Positions 1,548 to 40,625 of a stretch of DNA of 40,625 bases are shown here, piece after piece; the stretch's first letter is position 1; each line of letters opens with the position of its first letter. The notes under the pieces were generated by a model. The model worked only from the letters and a program-made list of their open reading frames with translations. It was not told where the DNA came from and did no database searches. The DNA comes from a virus: IMG/VR virus record IMGVR_UViG_3300048922_000436, positions 1 through 40,625 of that record, one strand, 5' to 3'. The position numbers and the translations under genes are program-made.

Positions 1548-1753
1548 GCGACACCTCTTTGCCTATCTGCTTTTACCCGGCGATCGTAATCTTCAGCGCA
1601 GCTATCGCCCTCGCAAAAATTACCCCTGCTAATAGTCTCTCCGCACCAATAACAGCGGCCAGTAAACAACATTGACGGCTTTGTCCGGTTGGATAATGCC
1701 GCGAGGATAATCAGTTCTTCTTGCTCTTGTGCGTTGTCGATGATGTCAGCCAT
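1544..1753 (-). CDS. Small zinc-finger-like protein (69 aa)
   Basis: The centre holds four cysteines in a C-x2-C-x9-C-x5-C arrangement (CYWCGE ... FCEGDSC), consistent with a single zinc ribbon. An acidic helical N-terminus (DNAQEQEELI) and a basic tail follow the pattern of small phage DksA/TraR-like zinc proteins, but the DksA signature is not complete, so I do not assign that name. It overlaps the upstream gene by 8 bases and the downstream gene by 4, showing tight coupling in the int operon. Confidence 0.65.
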   Translation of the reverse strand: MADIIDNAQEQEELIILAALSNRTKPSMLFTGRCYWCGETISRGNFCEGDSCAEDYDRRVKADRQRGVA

Positions 1754-1967
1754 GTTTAACTCCTAATCCTAAAATGCTCTCGACATCATCAGCGCCACAG
1801 CCGGATGCCATGATTGCTTGCCCTTCATGCAGGAATACTCGAACAGGAGCAGGCATTACTCCGGTACGCTCCCACAGTGCTTGATGAAGTTTCTGCTGCA
1901 ATGCATCCGTGCTAACGCGCCCGTCAGTGAAATAGGCGCGGGGAATCCTGACGCTGATAGTGTCCAT
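1746..1967 (-). CDS. Phage protein of unknown function (73 aa)
   Basis: The start is placed at the ATG at 1967 (MDTISVRIPR) because GGAG lies about 8 nt upstream. The longer reading to 2021 would begin inside the terminator hairpin. The protein has an amphipathic strand-helix pattern and no recognised motif. It is the first gene after the minus-strand terminator at about 2000, so it needs read-through transcription or a promoter I cannot see. It heads the group that leads into xis and int. Confidence 0.6.
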   Translation of the reverse strand: MDTISVRIPRAYFTDGRVSTDALQQKLHQALWERTGVMPAPVRVFLHEGQAIMASGCGADDVESILGLGVKHG

Positions 1968-1994
1968 AATGGTTACTCCGCTTGGAGATGGGCA

Positions 1995-2018
1995 ACAAAA
2001 AACCCGCCGTAGCGGGTT
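1995..2018 (-). terminator. Intrinsic terminator after the theta gene
   Basis: On the minus strand a 7-bp stem AACCCGC/GCGGGTT with a TACG loop runs directly into a T-rich run (TTTTTTGTT). It closes the LexA-controlled two-gene unit upstream and separates it from the int operon. Confidence 0.85.
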
Positions 2019-2036
2019 CATGTCAGTTGGTTGGAT

Positions 2037-2291
2037 TTACTTCTTGCCGTTGGCCTCTGCCATCTGCTGATAGCGCGGGTCATTTGGACCTGGGAATTTG
2101 TGGCTTTGGCCACGATAATGCTGCAGTCGTTCACGGAAGTATTCTCGCAGGTGTGCAGGCTGCTCTTCTTCAACTTGCGCAGGAACAATCGGCATATTCA
2201 TGCGCTCTTTGTAAGCTACGCCTGAAGCAGCTAAATCTACATTAACCTTCTCGCGCTCTTCCGGTGATTTATCCGCTATGTTGTATGACAT
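2037..2291 (-). CDS. hot: DNA polymerase III theta subunit homologue (HolE/Hot)
   Basis: This 84-aa protein matches what I recall of E. coli HolE (theta) and phage P1 Hot, notably the blocks [21 protein letters not shown] and [20 protein letters not shown]. Theta is the small alpha-helical subunit that binds and stabilises the epsilon proofreading subunit in the polymerase III core. The C-terminal about 20 residues diverge and are probably disordered. The gene lies 9 bp downstream of an unknown 86-aa gene, under one LexA-box promoter, and ends 19 bp before an intrinsic terminator. A phage-supplied theta induced by DNA damage could alter or stabilise host proofreading during lytic growth; that role is inference. 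Confidence 0.88.
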
Positions 2292-2300
2292 CGCCCAATC

Positions 2301-2561
2301 CTATATCAGCTCAAAGTCATCATCGAACGTTGCAAAGTTTAGCTCTGCAGCGCGCATCTCGAGGATAAATTTGATACCGTCATGTAGTGAAGTTGGCCGA
2401 TCATACTCCAGAACGAAGCGATCGTGATAGGTGCGTCCTAGCCAGTACCCGCCGCCGTATTCCTTCAGCCGTTGGAAGAACACCCAGCCACCTTCTTTGG
2501 GATACTCCAGCGTCTCGCCGCGGTAAACGACCTGATAGCCGCTGTAGTTTTTCGTTGTCAT
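2301..2561 (-). CDS. Unknown protein, first gene of SOS unit (86 aa)
   Basis: The family is not recognised. The protein is rich in aromatic residues (YSGYQVVYRG, GGWVFFQRL, GGGYWLGRTYHDRF) with an acidic C-terminus (FDDDFELI), which suggests a small beta-rich fold. It is the first gene downstream of the promoter and LexA box at 2579-2622, with a leader of roughly 25 nt, and is followed after 9 bp by the theta homologue. Co-induction with theta makes a role in the DNA-damage response or early replication plausible, but nothing in the sequence specifies it. Confidence 0.72.
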   Translation of the reverse strand: MTTKNYSGYQVVYRGETLEYPKEGGWVFFQRLKEYGGGYWLGRTYHDRFVLEYDRPTSLHDGIKFILEMRAAELNFATFDDDFELI

Positions 2562-2578
2562 AACTTACACCATAAAAA

Positions 2579-2622
2579 TACTGTTCATATATACAGTATA
2601 ATTATGGTTGTCTGTGAGTCAA
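2579..2622 (-). promoter_or_regulatory. LexA-controlled promoter (SOS box)
   Basis: Minus-strand promoter: -35 TTGACT (2617-2622), 16-bp spacer, -10 TATACT (2595-2600). A LexA box at 2579-2598, tactgttcatatatacagta, overlaps the -10. It keeps both CTGT and ACAG arms at the 8-bp spacing of the E. coli consensus, with only two inner departures from the alternating AT core. The -35 overlaps the stop codon of the upstream gene, so this is an independent promoter inside the left operon. Confidence 0.88.
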
Positions 2623-3005
2623 TTCCCACCCTCCGGCGCTGCTGCCAGCATTGCACGATAAGCTGTTGGGCTATATACGCTAGCTTCACGAAATGCGGCG
2701 CGTAACATTTCTTCTGTCGGCTCAACTGGCACCATCTTCCAGCCCTCCGGCACTGCTGGCGCTGGCGGGGCGGTGTAAACGGCAACAGGGTTTTTAATGC
2801 GATCTCGGCGCTCCGGCGGGTAGATGAAGCCCTTTCCGTTTTCTGCGTACCCCACCGGCTGCGCCTCCCGGTAAGTCGCCAACTCATCAAAAGCGTCGGC
2901 GTTCTGCAGCATGTCCTGAGCGATGCTCACGGATTCCCACTTCGCCTCTACCGCTTTTTCGCGCCAGAACTTAGCGCGCGCTCTCAACTGCTCAGTCGTT
3001 AACAT
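2619..3005 (-). CDS. Ea22-like accessory protein (128 aa)
   Basis: The start at 3005 (MLTTEQLRARAKFWREKA) has GGAG 9 nt upstream and overlaps the preceding gene by 14 bases. The N-terminal half is a charged helix. The C-terminal half carries a module seen in many enterobacterial prophage proteins: a proline-rich linker (PPAPAVPEGW), then KMVPVEPTEEMLRAA and YRAMLAAAPEGG. No enzymatic motif is visible. Function is unknown; it is one of several accessory genes of the leftward operon. Confidence 0.7.
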   Translation of the reverse strand: MLTTEQLRARAKFWREKAVEAKWESVSIAQDMLQNADAFDELATYREAQPVGYAENGKGFIYPPERRDRIKNPVAVYTAPPAPAVPEGWKMVPVEPTEEMLRAAFREASVYSPTAYRAMLAAAPEGGN

Positions 3006-3507
3006 TGTTTCGCTCTCCGTGGTTGGCGAATTCACCGTGAAGTCTTTCTCTTCCTGATTTAACGGCGGAAGCGGCATCATTGATGTCATCAAACATTCCG
3101 AAGTGATATGTCTTGTAATTAAACTTCACCGAGGTTTGCCACTTTTTCGCCTTAGCGTTCCAACTGACACCTTTTATTCCTGTGGTGCTATTTGAATATG
3201 TTTTTGTATTCCATATGTTTTCCTGATTTGTGCAGTCTCGTAAGTTAACGATTCGGTTATCAGTCCTTACCCCATTGATGTGGTCAATGACATTGTCAGG
3301 CCATGATCCGTAATGAATGAGCCAAGCAAGCCTATGCGCCAAATAGGGTTTTTTGTTAATAGTTACTGCCATATACCCCATGCCGCATCCAGATCCTGCA
3401 ACTCGTCCAGCCTTTACATTTCTCGAAGAGTTAACCAGCCAGGTCAATATTCCAGTTTCTGGGTCGTATGACAGAACGCTTCTTGCGTATTCTGCGGTCA
3501 TTTCCAT
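2992..3507 (-). CDS. HNH endonuclease with AP2 DNA-binding domain
   Basis: An HNH nuclease core spans about residues 55-105 (AHRLAWLIHYG ... IDHINGVRTDNRIVNLR ... N), followed by an AP2/ERF-like DNA-binding domain at about 110-160 (STTGIKGVSWNAKAKKWQ ... KTYHFGMFDDINDAA). This is the HNH-AP2 architecture of free-standing phage homing-type endonucleases. I chose ATG 3507 (MEMTAEY) because AGGGGG sits 9 nt upstream; ATG 3516 is an alternative. It is embedded between accessory genes and overlaps the next one by 14 bases, with no visible intron or target duplication. Confidence 0.88.
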   Translation of the reverse strand: MEMTAEYARSVLSYDPETGILTWLVNSSRNVKAGRVAGSGCGMGYMAVTINKKPYLAHRLAWLIHYGSWPDNVIDHINGVRTDNRIVNLRDCTNQENIWNTKTYSNSTTGIKGVSWNAKAKKWQTSVKFNYKTYHFGMFDDINDAASAVKSGRERLHGEFANHGERNNVND

Positions 3508-3508
3508 C

Positions 3509-3961
3509 CTACTCATCCCCCTCTACGGTGAAGCCAGCGGCGCGCACTCGCTCATCAACGCGATCAGCATGCATTACTGGCACTGCTTTGCCTCTGACTT
3601 TGATAAACATCACGTCAGGCAACCGCACCGGAGTAGCCAGCCTGGCTTCCAGCTCGGCAACTCGTTGCTCCGCGTTCTCTGCTCGCTCTTCTTGTGCAAG
3701 CGCTTCCGGCGTGAATCCAGATTGCAACTGACCTTCCAGCTCAGCGATGCGCTTTTTCAGTTCCTGGTTTTCAACGTTCAGTGATGCCGCAGCCTCCCAG
3801 TTAACAGCGGATTCGTGTTGGAGGGCGGAGACGTACTCTTGCGAGTAAATTGGTTTCGGATTTTTGTAATCGTCAAAGAACGGGTCGCTGTCGCTGACAA
3901 CCGTTCCGCAATCTGCGATGTACGACACCGGCTTGCTCAGTTCGCTCAGCTTATTGTCCAT
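3509..3961 (-). CDS. Coiled-coil Ea22-like phage protein (150 aa)
   Basis: The start codon ATG at 3961 shares a base with the previous stop (TGATG), so translation is coupled. Residues about 45-110 form a heptad coiled coil (NVENQELKKRIAELEGQLQ ... ERAENAEQRVAELEARL) like the Ead/Ea22 family of lambdoid phages. The C-terminus (PDVMFIKVRGKAVPVM ... DERVRAAGF) is a small conserved-looking module. No catalytic motif is present and function is unknown. Confidence 0.72.
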   Translation of the reverse strand: MDNKLSELSKPVSYIADCGTVVSDSDPFFDDYKNPKPIYSQEYVSALQHESAVNWEAAASLNVENQELKKRIAELEGQLQSGFTPEALAQEERAENAEQRVAELEARLATPVRLPDVMFIKVRGKAVPVMHADRVDERVRAAGFTVEGDE

Positions 3962-10003: not shown

Positions 10004-10261
10004 TTAACGTGCTGTTATTTTGTTTGATTTGCGATGCCCAGCTGCGAACATTGCCACCTCTGGCAAGCACATCGCACCGCCTTCAGCTGACTCACGAACT
10101 GGCCGAGGACATGCTTTGTATTCAATGAGTGAAAGCGCCTTGGCAACTCGCGCATTTCCAACCAGTGCTGAGGCCACGTTGCGAGCCAGGCTGATATCTT
10201 TGTTACGCTCTGCCCGATGTGCGATTGCTCGAGCCAGCTTCTTGCGTTCTTTGCTGTTCAT
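10004..10261 (-). CDS. N: Candidate N antitermination protein (85 aa)
   Basis: First gene of the PL operon. The N-terminus NSKERKKLARAIAHRAERNK is an arginine/lysine-rich helix like the boxB-binding motif of N proteins; the rest is not clearly similar to lambda or P22 N. Support comes mostly from context: a nut-like site lies between PL and this gene, a matching one lies after cro, several intrinsic terminators follow, and the mRNA leader folds into a long stem ending 4 nt before the ribosome site (GGAG), as in the lambda N leader. The start ATG 10261 fits that site. RNA-binding specificity would be to the boxB hairpins listed here. Confidence 0.62.
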   Translation of the reverse strand: MNSKERKKLARAIAHRAERNKDISLARNVASALVGNARVAKALSLIEYKACPRPVRESAEGGAMCLPEVAMFAAGHRKSNKITAR

Positions 10262-10722: not shown

Positions 10723-11457
10723 TCAAGGAAGAACTGCGTACCAGAAAACACGACCAATAATTTCAACTTCGTTAATATCCTTCTCCTCCGGCTCGTACTC
10801 GGCCGAATTGTAGCTTCTTAGGCTTATCCTATCCGGTCCAACACGATAAAGAACCCGGATGCGCTTCCATCCGTTCTGGTTGATGGCATAAAGCTTTCCA
10901 TCAACTAGCTTCTTGTCATTCGTGTTGACCGCTATCTCAGTACCGTCTGGTATGTTTGGCTCCATACTGTTGCCGCGAGCTGGGAAGCACAAAACTCCTT
11001 TGCCATCGGTACTAGCGCCAACCTGGCGCAGCGTGGCTTTGGAGAATCTCAATTTTTCCCCATCATATTGTTCTTCGTTATAACTTCCGTCCCCAGCGGC
11101 GAGCTCAATGTCTCGCAAAAAAGGCACCTCTACTTCATCCCTGAGCAAAGGGGTATTTCTATCCCATGAAGCACCAGCTTCCCACTCTTCAAGCGGCGGT
11201 GTAGCTGAATCAGGGTGATGCTTTGAATAAGAGCTATCACTTTCATCCCTCATCGGCCCAGATTCTTCACTGAGCCATTCAGGACGAACATGCAATGCCC
11301 TGGCGATCTCCACGATTTTAGTCGACGTTTTTGCTTTTCCAGAAGCTAGCTTCTGTATTGCAGCCTGTGACACACCAACCAAATCGGCTAGTGCGGACTG
11401 CGTCAGGTTTGCGGCCAACATGGCGGCCTTCAATCTTTGAGCGAGAGTCATTTTCAT
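10723..11457 (-). CDS. cI: CI repressor (HTH plus S24 peptidase domain)
   Basis: This 244-aa lysogeny repressor has an N-terminal HTH_3 domain (residues 4-60, QSALADLVGVSQAAIQKLASG) and a C-terminal LexA-type S24 domain. The self-cleavage pair is A121-G122 (ELAAGDG), the nucleophile S164 (GNSMEP) and the general base probably K198. It should therefore be inactivated by RecA-stimulated autocleavage. The start is ATG 11457: the upstream in-frame codons lie within or upstream of the PRM -10, and the predicted PRM transcript begins at or within two bases of this ATG, so translation is nearly leaderless as for lambda cI. The operators are at 10537-10618 and 11466-11531. Confidence 0.95.
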   Translation of the reverse strand: MKMTLAQRLKAAMLAANLTQSALADLVGVSQAAIQKLASGKAKTSTKIVEIARALHVRPEWLSEESGPMRDESDSSYSKHHPDSATPPLEEWEAGASWDRNTPLLRDEVEVPFLRDIELAAGDGSYNEEQYDGEKLRFSKATLRQVGASTDGKGVLCFPARGNSMEPNIPDGTEIAVNTNDKKLVDGKLYAINQNGWKRIRVLYRVGPDRISLRSYNSAEYEPEEKDINEVEIIGRVFWYAVLP

Positions 11458-11464
11458 ATCCGAG

Positions 11465-11493
11465 AAAATACAACCTCGGTTATACGTGGTCAA
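11465..11493 (-). promoter_or_regulatory. PRM promoter for cI
   Basis: Minus-strand -35 TTGACC (11488-11493), 17-bp spacer, -10 TATTTT (11465-11470). The start point falls on or just before the cI ATG. It is divergent from PR across a shared operator region. Confidence 0.75.
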
Positions 11494-36110: not shown

Positions 36111-38057
36111 ATGGCCGACATCACGCCTAATGTCGTAATTAGCATGCCCTCACAGCTGTTCACCTTGGCTCGCTCGTTCAAAGCTGCAGCTAATGGCAGG
36201 ATTTACATCGGTAAGATTGATACCGATCCAACCATCCCGGATAACCAGATTCAGGTTTATATCCAAAATGAAGATGGGACGGTCGTTCCGGTATCACAAC
36301 CGATCATGATCAACGCAGGCGGCTATCCTGTTTACGGCGGCCAGATTTCCAAGTTTGTCACCGTTGAAGGCCATAGTATGGCCATCTACGATTCATATGG
36401 TACGCAGCAGTTTTATTTTTCTAACGTCTTGAAGTATGACCCAGACCAGCTAAAAGCGCAGTTAGCTGGCCCTGACGGCGTCCTGCTTGTGGGCAATGCA
36501 ACGGACAAGCGGGATTTAGCAGGTGATGACGCAACTAAGAAGATTGTTGATCACGTGCATGTCTTTAACGATGTCACGGTGTCATTCAGGCAGTTCCTCA
36601 CCGTTAAAGACGGTAGCGTTGACGCATCTGCTGCCATCACTGCAGCCCTGAACTCAGGGTTTAAGGTTGAGGTTCCAGGCGATTATGTGCTTAGAGTTGA
36701 TAGCCCAAGCATTGTGGCAAACGTAGCATGCCAATTCTTTGGGGCTCCAGGCACGCGACCTACGATACTGATTAATCACGTTGCCACAGGCCAAACACAA
36801 TTCAAGTTCATGCTGAATAACAGCTATTTTGCGAACTTTAATATCAGGTATCCGCTTCAAAAAACAACGCTGGCAACTGGAGAGTCGCCGATCGCATATG
36901 GAGAATTATTCGGCGGAAACGGATTCTACAACACGTTTGAAAACATGGATATCGGGAACTGTTACTATGGATTTAAATTCGGAGATTCTTCGTTTTCGTC
37001 ATCCAGAATTACCATTCGTAACATCACCGGTTCTCCTATTCTTCGCGGCATGTCATTGGATCGCGTTCTTGATATCCCGCGAGTTTCAGATATTCACTTT
37101 AACTACAACAACCTCGAAGCCCCATATACTTATGATCTAACAATGAAGCAGTGGATACATGACCATCTGGATGGTTTCCATATCGGTCGATGTGATTTCG
37201 GTAGCTTTAACCGCCTTTTCGTATTTGGCGCGTTGAATGGGATATTTTTAAGAACAGAAAGATTTACTGGATCTGCCAACGCCGTTAGTTTTACTGATTG
37301 TTACGCTGACATAACCGTTCACCCGTTGAGGTTCCAGAACTGGCAAACATCAATCACCATGATCGGTGGCAAGTTTACCGGTAATGCCGAATCTACCGGC
37401 GGCCTTGTCGAAAAAGAGCCAAGCACAAACTTAATGACTAACTCACCAGCGGCAGGTAACAACCCGTTGGGTATTGTTAAGCTAATCGGCGGAGAGTACA
37501 GTAACTACTCATCAGATGTGTTTCAGGGTTCTGCAAAAATTGAGGCATTTGGCACGCAGCTATATCAATACGGAAAAGATAACGGCCAGCGAGCGGCTTT
37601 CAATATCACGACCGGCTTCAGCCAAGACATCACTGCGATTGGATGTATCATTAACGGCGCTGGAGGCACTCAGAATAGAGCGTTTAACTCAAGTGGTGGC
37701 ACTGGAGTTCTTCGCATAGGTGACGGCACTGTTCTATCAAACAATGCGCTTGGTTCATTTGACTGGCGATCTGGCCCTGTCATTCCGTCAAGTTCGGCAG
37801 TTCTTGGCAACCCAGGTCATAACGGAGTGTCATTCGTATCCAACATACCCAAAGAGTATATGGCTGAGAGCATTCCAACATCTGGCTCTTTCTATCTTCC
37901 CGGTGACTATGTGACGAAAACAAATCCAGTGAAGACGGGATTTGTTGGACAGCCTAACTACGTAATTCAAGGTTGGCGTCGCCTAACTGCTGGCAGCGGG
38001 CATGTCTTAAACACTGATTGGGTAGAAGACAGGACATACTTCAACGGGGTTTCGTAA
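36111..38057 (+). CDS. Tailspike with P22-type head-binding domain
   Basis: Residues 1 to about 110 match the P22 tailspike head-binding domain ([51 protein letters not shown]). The remaining 540 residues form a different beta-rich body with a parallel beta-helix look ([37 protein letters not shown]), probably an O-antigen-binding or -cleaving domain of unknown specificity. GGAG before the ATG directly follows a 7-bp inverted repeat (36070-36076 with 36093-36099). Confidence 0.95.
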
Positions 38058-38654: not shown

Positions 38655-40625
38655 ATGAGTGTTGCTATGTCTTCTAATGCAAGGGTTTTCCGGCATGACA
38701 TCAATGGGCTTCGCGCTTGGGCAGTAATCGCTGTCGTACTTTTCCATTTTGGCGTTCCTGGCTTTGTTGGCGGTTTTGTCGGGGTGGATGTGTTTTTTGT
38801 GATCTCAGGTTTCCTGATGACGCAAATCATTGTTTCTGGTATAGAAAATGGCAACTTCTCCCTTTGGCGGTTCTATCTGGCTCGCGCACGCAGAATCATT
38901 CCTGCATTGTTGGCTTTGAGTTTTACCCTACTGATTCTCGGTTGGTTTTTCCTCACCTCGGTAGACTACAATACCCTTTCAAAGCATGTGCTGGTTGCCG
39001 TGCTGTTTATTTCCAACGTAAAGTTTTGGAAAGAATCTGGCTATTTTGATGCCGCATCGCATGAAAAGTGGTTGCTTCATACCTGGTCATTATCGGTTGA
39101 ATGGCAATTCTATATTGCACTCCCCGTCGTTTTGTTGGTTATGTGGCGTTTTTGGAAAACGCCAGGGGTGAAATTCACCCTGTTTGGTGGTTTTCTGCTC
39201 TCCTTTGCTCTTGCATGCTATTTAGCCGTCACCTTACCCAGCGCCGCGTTCTTTTTGTTGCCGACAAGGGCGTGGGAGATGTTGGCGGGTGGTGCCGTAT
39301 GGTGGCTGACTCGGAATAGTCACTTCTCGAAAATTAAAGCTCAAATGATGGAGCTGGTGGGGTTCATCCTGATCGTTGTCGCAATCGTGTTTTTCACCCC
39401 TAAGCTTGCATGGCCGGGGGCTTATGCGATGGTGCCAGTGGCGGGGGCGATGCTGGTACTCGCTGCGGCCAGACAGGGCTCAATTTTTACATCGAACTAT
39501 ATTGCAGAGCGAGTGGGGGTCTCGTCGTACTCTATTTATCTTTGGCATTGGCCCGTAGTGGTTTTTCTTGCTTACAATAATACCGCGGGAGATTGGCGAT
39601 GGGTGCTGGGGGGATTGCTGCTCAGTTTGGTTTTAGGTGAGCTTTCTTTACGGTTTATTGAAAATCCGGCCCGCAAAAAATTAGCTAAGCAAAGCGATTG
39701 GGGGAATGTTTTCAGTATCGGTTCCTGCATGGTAATTATCTGCGCCGCTACTGTCGTCATGTTTAAGCACCATTTTATCAATCGTGTGCCGGAACAGATC
39801 GATCTTATCGCTAATGAAAGTCTCAATTCCAATCCCAAGCACGCCGACTGTTTCGCTACGACGGGCACGACCTCGCCGGGATGTATATTCGGCGGCAGTG
39901 AAATTAAGGCGGTGGTCGTCGGTGATAGCCATGGTAATGCTATGGTTACAGCCGTGGAAGCGGCATTGCCAAGCAAAGACGATGGCGTGTTGAATCTTAC
40001 CTATGCGGGTTGTCCTACGCTCTACCGGGCAAAAACAGTACCTGGTGAAGCTGAGGATCATCAGGATTGTTATGGCTTCAATCAATGGCAACGGAAAAAA
40101 CTGGCAAGCCTGGATAGTTCTATTCCTATCGTGATCATAAACAGAACGTCGGTATATGCCTTTGGACGGCATAATGTCGAAGAAAAAAGGCGTACACCGA
40201 TCGTCTATTTTTCCGAGATCAGCGCGACGCCGAATCCTGAATTCCTGGCGGAATTTAAGTCATCTTTAGTTGAGTCTGCCTGTGAGTTGGCCGCTAAACA
40301 TCCTGTTTTCATGATGCGGCCTATGCCGGAAATGATGTCTAATGTCCCTAAAACGCTGTCACGGGCTATGATGTTGGGGAAAGACGCGCCGCATATTTAT
40401 CTGTCGGAAGCTGACTATATGAAACGTCATTCGTTTGTATGGCAAGCGCAGGACGAAGCTGCAGAAAAATGTGGCGTGAAAATCCTGAATCCATTACCGC
40501 TGGTTTGTAGCGGTGGAAAATGTGAAAGCACATATAGCGGGCGCCCTATTTATTATGATGATAATCATGTAAGTGAATACGGGAATAAACTGTTGGTGCC
40601 GATGTTCAAAACGATTTTTGATTGA
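38655..40625 (+). CDS. O-acyltransferase with SGNH domain (OafA-like)
   Basis: This 656-aa protein has an N-terminal acyltransferase-3 membrane domain of about ten helices (RHDINGLRAWAVIAVVLFHF; GGFVGVDVFFVISGFLM; RARRIIPAL; LLHTWSLSVEWQFY; YSIYLWHWPVVVF) and a periplasmic SGNH-type domain from about 400: VVVGDSHGN (nucleophile Ser) and DDNHVSEYG near the end (Asp/His). Such proteins acetylate O-antigen or other surface glycans. The start could also be ATG 38667; neither has a good ribosome site. It lies outside attR, so it is probably host or from another element. Confidence 0.9.
   Translation: MSVAMSSNARVFRHDINGLRAWAVIAVVLFHFGVPGFVGGFVGVDVFFVISGFLMTQIIVSGIENGNFSLWRFYLARARRIIPALLALSFTLLILGWFFLTSVDYNTLSKHVLVAVLFISNVKFWKESGYFDAASHEKWLLHTWSLSVEWQFYIALPVVLLVMWRFWKTPGVKFTLFGGFLLSFALACYLAVTLPSAAFFLLPTRAWEMLAGGAVWWLTRNSHFSKIKAQMMELVGFILIVVAIVFFTPKLAWPGAYAMVPVAGAMLVLAAARQGSIFTSNYIAERVGVSSYSIYLWHWPVVVFLAYNNTAGDWRWVLGGLLLSLVLGELSLRFIENPARKKLAKQSDWGNVFSIGSCMVIICAATVVMFKHHFINRVPEQIDLIANESLNSNPKHADCFATTGTTSPGCIFGGSEIKAVVVGDSHGNAMVTAVEAALPSKDDGVLNLTYAGCPTLYRAKTVPGEAEDHQDCYGFNQWQRKKLASLDSSIPIVIINRTSVYAFGRHNVEEKRRTPIVYFSEISATPNPEFLAEFKSSLVESACELAAKHPVFMMRPMPEMMSNVPKTLSRAMMLGKDAPHIYLSEADYMKRHSFVWQAQDEAAEKCGVKILNPLPLVCSGGKCESTYSGRPIYYDDNHVSEYGNKLLVPMFKTIFD

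Follow-up and report, generated by a model that had tools for sequence, protein, structure and literature searches.

LexA-controlled prophage operons that carry dinI and antirepressors are established, as the accessible part of one account describes (PMC3121763). Phage-borne relatives of the DNA polymerase III theta subunit are known as well: P1 Hot can substitute for theta (PMC7556043, citing Chikova and Schaaper) and, according to the available text of the same article, is expressed in both lysogeny and lytic growth (PMC7556043). That text reported in 2020 a gene of Serratia phage BZS1, phiBZS1_p37, a phrog_2100 member with a LexA motif upstream and a function given as unknown, and already noted its homologues in Salmonella and Klebsiella phages (PMC7556043). 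Here we describe a locus in which a phrog_2100 gene is followed by a theta homologue. It occupies positions 2037–2622 of the whole 40,625-nt stretch of viral DNA that was analysed (hereafter the window), and these coordinates, given in the original prediction of an SOS-controlled two-gene unit, proved correct.

The terminase-portal region of the window shares ~80% identity with P22-group phages (Sf6, HK620). An N-like ORF, RecT- and RecE-like genes, an excisionase and an integrase lie on the left side of the phage, with O-like and DnaB-like replication genes on the other side; no polymerase gene was seen among the window ORFs searched. This gene content suggests a temperate phage that carries the unit in its left operon and whose replication should rely on host Pol III. 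The unit had been placed inside an N-controlled left operon, and an N-like antiterminator ORF (10004–10261, minus strand; phrog_271, E 5.8e-6) does lie on the same strand as the unit; control by N itself is plausible. Also in the left operon is a gene of the homing-endonuclease type (2992–3516, minus strand; HNH_3 endonuclease with a weak AP2-domain match), which overlaps a 157-aa frame at 2619–3092. A tailspike is encoded at 36111–38057 on the plus strand, and its first 300 residues match phrog_8280, a family annotated with colanic acid degradation activity. The record is bounded precisely by two stop codons, that of the integrase at position 1 and that of an acyltransferase-like gene at position 40625, so the prophage ends (att sites) have probably been trimmed.

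The control region of the unit contains a LexA box, TACTGTTCATATATACAGTA (2579–2598, no strand assigned), which agrees with the consensus TACTGTATATATATACAGTA in 18 of 20 bases, leaving two mismatches. It is the sole match with three or fewer mismatches in the 40,625 bases, none being found in 100 shuffles, and the sole CTG-N10-CAG site in the window with eight or fewer mismatches. A CTG-N10-CAG site that is near consensus and located at a promoter, as membership of the LexA (SOS) regulon calls for, is thus present. The box overlaps the −10 element (TATACT, 2600–2595) of a sigma-70-type promoter (2595–2622, minus strand), whose −35 element (TTGACT, 2622–2617) lies across a 16-nt spacer, bearing out the predicted near-consensus box over the −10 at a level of match for which no occurrence is expected by chance. 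In relatives, the box likewise lies 35–38 bp 5′ of the start codon, with interior bases that differ, and TTGAC is kept in place in 16 of the 24 relatives listed, by our own count.

At the other end of the unit stands an intrinsic terminator (2000–2019, minus strand) with an 8-bp stem followed by a T run. The hairpin is present in two of five relatives listed (L006, L010), altered in one (L013) and absent from the other two (L014, L018). The anticipated layout, in which the promoter reads the 86-aa gene and the theta homologue up to an intrinsic terminator, was recovered, with the promoter and terminator patterns each at chance level when taken alone (2 promoter sites found in the region versus 1.6 expected; 2 terminator-like sites versus 1.7 expected from shuffles). 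On its sequence, the stretch is supported as an SOS-controlled two-gene unit with a genuine theta homologue. We also noticed that the longest start codon of a 91-aa ORF (1746–2021, minus strand) falls within the terminator of the unit; translation more likely begins at an internal ATG (MDTISVRIPRAYF...).

The second cistron (2037–2291, minus strand) encodes an 84-aa protein whose membership of the theta family is, by sequence comparison, beyond doubt. It matches PF06440 with 113.6 bits (cut-off 34.6; E 3.6e-33), NCBIfam with 105.9 (cut-off 97) and phrog_1105 with E 3.2e-32. Compared by sequence with solved structures, it finds P1 Hot as its best match (PDB 1se7, E 1.9e-26) and theta at E 3.6e-17 (1du2), confirming the HolE/Hot homologue that had been proposed. 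A gap of 9 nt separates this gene from the first cistron, an 86-aa gene (2301–2561, minus strand) belonging to phrog_2100 (profile E 1.1e-33 over residues 6–85). Within the window's clade, purifying selection acts strongly on the two genes, pN/pS being 0.066 for the 86-aa gene (15 sequences) and 0.050 for theta (14 sequences).

SOS control had been thought to centre on theta, and the relatives of the two genes, which were gathered separately, argue against this. Of 119 distinct phrog_2100 loci, most of them without theta, 114 have a LexA box in the 900 bp upstream; these loci are mutually related rather than independent trials. When upstream and downstream intervals of an equal 700 bp were compared at those loci for which 300 bp or more of downstream DNA was available (116 of the 119), the box was found upstream at 111 and downstream at 0. 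Conversely, none of 58 distinct theta genes that do not adjoin phrog_2100 (those with at least 200 bp upstream, out of 65 considered) has a box within 700 bp; in two annotated phages that we examined, theta is placed after the lysis genes. The annotation of P1, described below, likewise separates hot from the LexA site. By these comparisons, the LexA box belongs to the 86-aa phrog_2100 gene and not to theta, which as a rule is not an SOS gene.

Clustering was performed on 100 of the 114 distinct proteins, namely those that passed a length and motif filter. The box was found in 57 of 60 clusters at below 93% similarity, with 46 different box sequences, and in 36 of 39 clusters at below 70% similarity, with 33 different box sequences, indicating that the boxes are not one copied stretch. 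The LexA box is therefore conserved with the phrog_2100 gene in relatives, a second mark of the LexA (SOS) regulon. Five loci are boxless: four (L175, L177, L179 and L224) are fragmentary or are preceded by insufficient DNA, and one (L226) is a full-length copy. In L226, the sequence upstream of position 2980 is unlike that of close relatives, as if it had been replaced.

Two layouts recur among the boxed loci. In the first, the box stands directly before the phrog_2100 start codon; in the second, represented by 27 loci, many of them P2-like, it lies 220–616 bp upstream, with a DinI-like frame beside it in 26 of the 27, and in P2-like phages it is usually found before the dinI gene. In two P2-like loci (L182, L184) the order is LexA box, a 62-aa ORF in the TumA position, dinI and phrog_2100. 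That the box could be incidental, an AT-rich palindrome over a promoter serving the phage's own regulation, is conceivable insofar as its core falls on the −10 region, which is expected to be rich in A and T; we consider this highly improbable, given that no match of this level is expected by chance, that 46 different boxes accompany the gene in 57 clusters at two distances, and that boxes are missing mainly from fragments.

A later draw of 38 loci from Enterobacterales genomes agrees with LexA control of phrog_2100. Near full-length copies were boxed in 22 of 22 cases, four of which duplicate loci already counted or may do so (L257, L261, L287 and perhaps L263), and partial or diverged copies in 6 of 15; one further locus had no profile match. 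A diverged sister group of phrog_2100 (L284, L286, L288, L294 and L296–L299) is also boxed upstream and carries the C-terminal tail QGELPF; another sister-group locus, L295, is truncated and without a box.

Downstream of phrog_2100, theta was the only recurring, recognisable partner found. It stands behind phrog_2100 at about 17 loci, those of the window's clade, as well as in L024 and L130. Most phrog_2100 genes are without theta behind them, and in L022 and L023 theta has decayed behind an intact 86-aa gene, so theta is dispensable. In a theta tree, a single clade for the thetas of SOS units was rejected (AU p 0.00145 with L024; 0.0153 without this long branch), implying that theta was recruited into the SOS unit at least twice, in a tree that is based on 85 columns, has many weak branches and omits 4 of 39 representatives as broken, truncated or aberrant. 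In this tree, the four rows from host HolE fall into a separate clade.

One could argue that the unit exists to supply theta during the SOS response, altering proofreading or polymerase exchange, with the 86-aa gene secondary. The theta gene is indeed intact, under purifying selection and 9 nt behind the first gene, and theta joined units of this type in two or more lineages. Nevertheless, the box tracks the 86-aa gene, the 58 theta genes elsewhere are boxless, and it is theta that decayed in L022 and L023, so that we regard a unit built around theta as improbable. The distribution of the two genes points to phrog_2100 as the likely core gene and to theta as an occasional passenger, or added cargo; an effect of the prophage on replication fidelity or polymerase exchange, as had been suggested, is possible.

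The 86-aa protein had no Pfam family, no NCBIfam match and no PADLOC match. Fold searches with two models (pLDDT 85) against PDB and BFVD gave no match at E ≤ 0.001, VIA-align of the models reached a best Z of 3.8, tied with unrelated chains, on which nothing was built, and the phrog_2100 family profile found only an unrelated best match (E 0.26) among PDB sequences. A search for near DNA matches to the unit gave none among phages or E. coli genomes. The AlphaFold2 model shows a confident small alpha-beta core (pLDDT 93–95). In sequence, the core VFFQR..KEYGGGYW.G is nearly invariant across unrelated phages, and residues F29, G37, W40, G42, F49 and P56 are invariant in 37 of 37 aligned members. 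The C-terminal tail is the least confident part of the model after the N-terminus (pLDDT 66), and it is loose yet conserved, with L85 and F79 invariant in the 37 aligned members.

Such a tail raises the possibility that the 86-aa protein is a replisome ligand that uses this tail to bind the beta sliding clamp and, together with theta, acts on one machine. The tails include NLSLF, NFSLF and DDFTLF, that of the boxed sister group ends in QGELPF, and the pattern [QDNG][LFYM]xL[FL] fits 28 of 68 distinct tails versus 1 of 2568 background ORFs, although this motif was picked after seeing the tails, related sequences have tails in common by descent and the background includes many unreal frames. The beta-clamp motif is given as QLxLF, often C-terminal, in the available text of PMC4549789. 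Clamp ligands strongly conserve a glutamine at position 1, according to the accessible part of PMC3716654; in nearly all tails of the main family, however, D or N stands there, glutamine being present in the sister tails QGELPF. We hold clamp binding through the tail to be a tentative and rather unlikely reading. The tail ends themselves have an invariant L, with a final F in 28 of 68 distinct tails and PF in 2. A run of the type FDDD... in the tail, which we take to resemble the SSB tip, led us to consider mimicry of that tip; this is disfavoured, since the final residue is not fixed and several tails extend past the motif.

The setting of phrog_2100 invites a comparison with antirepressors of the Tum, GfoA-GftA or AntC type, which would act under LexA control to induce their own or co-resident prophages. 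Known small LexA-controlled phage proteins adjoining dinI (Gifsy gftA/gfoA, 186 tum) are antirepressors in the available text of PMC3121763, and phrog_2100 occupies the place after dinI in P2-like phages. We found no sequence relation to the known antirepressors Tum and GftA/GfoA: the phrog_2100 profile is unrelated to all frames of the Gifsy-2, 186, PSP3, SPC32H and P1 stretches (best E 3.9). In P2-like phages, moreover, it is another small ORF, before dinI, that is in the TumA position. The CI-type repressor of the window (10723–11493, minus strand; HTH_3) bears an S24 peptidase domain (PF00717, E 2.4e-18) and is probably itself inactivated through RecA, so that a separate antirepressor would be unnecessary. 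The nearly invariant core is unlike that of a protein fitted to variable repressors, and a copy with its own box lies on a conjugative plasmid (L185) with no annotated phage gene in the 5-kb neighbourhood. An antirepressor role for the 86-aa protein consequently appears doubtful to us.

We instead favour, as the probable reading, a LexA-repressed prophage accessory operon whose phrog_2100 core gene acts on a shared host function and to which a theta subunit for the Pol III core has been joined. In the lysogen, LexA would sit on the box over the −10 and keep the promoter off. Upon DNA damage, LexA would be cleaved, and the phrog_2100 protein and the theta homologue would be produced from one short transcript; after induction or infection, the left-operon transcript could also read both genes. 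The 86-aa protein most likely acts on a shared host function, in the replication, repair or SOS machinery, rather than on one phage repressor. Such a target is favoured because the core is nearly invariant and because the gene is found in phages with different repressors and neighbours, in phage-plasmids and in plasmids. The theta homologue most likely joins the host Pol III core via epsilon, as P1 Hot can, and would supply theta for phage replication by host Pol III under DNA damage. A more specific version, in which phrog_2100 is an SOS protein of mobile elements and reprograms the replisome of the host, its tail docking on the sliding clamp and the added theta and phrog_2100 together retuning Pol III proofreading and polymerase exchange in damage so that the fork is kept usable for phage replication, seems to us distinctly unlikely.

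Searching with the 86-aa protein of the window by tblastn, we found relatives in 36 of 50,697 phage records and 426 of 72,556 plasmid records, and among genomes sampled from the order and from the family to which an Enterobacter genome belongs, the family profile had matches in 4 of 394 and 33 of 392, respectively. The carriers of boxed phrog_2100 genes comprise P22-like, P2-like and other phages, phage-plasmids and plasmids, which makes this gene a strong candidate for a step, shared but so far unrecognised, in the use of the host SOS response by mobile elements. The theta cistron offers a direct lead to the replication machinery, and E. coli K-12 is a host in which both of these small genes can be tested.

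Compared with known systems, the unit resembles P1 hot in that both are phage-borne thetas of the same family with a LexA box in the neighbourhood. In the P1 annotation, however, the LexA site is that of lxr and humD, and the promoter given for hot is a late one, LPhot, whereas the theta of the window stands behind a LexA box. P1 lxr also differs from the 86-aa gene, Lxr being ~190 aa long and its gene convergent with hot, and the P1 stretch has no phrog_2100 match, so that we rejected Lxr as the identity of the 86-aa protein. Host HolE belongs to the same PF06440 family as the theta of the window; to our knowledge, it is not SOS-controlled.

In BZS1, as far as the available text shows, theta (phiBZS1_p70) lies apart among late genes and without a box, whereas in the window it is the second cistron behind phrog_2100. 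In the open-access literature, we found no paper on theta under LexA control, and only PMC7556043 was directly relevant to theta and LexA or to phrog_2100; its accessible part mentions neither conservation of the box throughout the family nor a theta gene in second place behind phrog_2100.

The unit also resembles the 186 tum-orf97, PSP3 tumA-tumB and Gifsy dinI-gftA-irsA operons. These are likewise small prophage operons whose promoter is overlaid by a LexA box; dinI is often among their genes, and phrog_2100 itself sits in such dinI-type operons in P2-like phages. Unlike the window, the 186, PSP3 and Gifsy operons carry proven antirepressors, unrelated in sequence to phrog_2100, and those examined have no theta. 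Judged by its sequence, the unit is thus of a known kind, a putative SOS-controlled prophage accessory operon such as tum and dinI-gftA; its core gene is uncharacterised, and its new cargo is theta.
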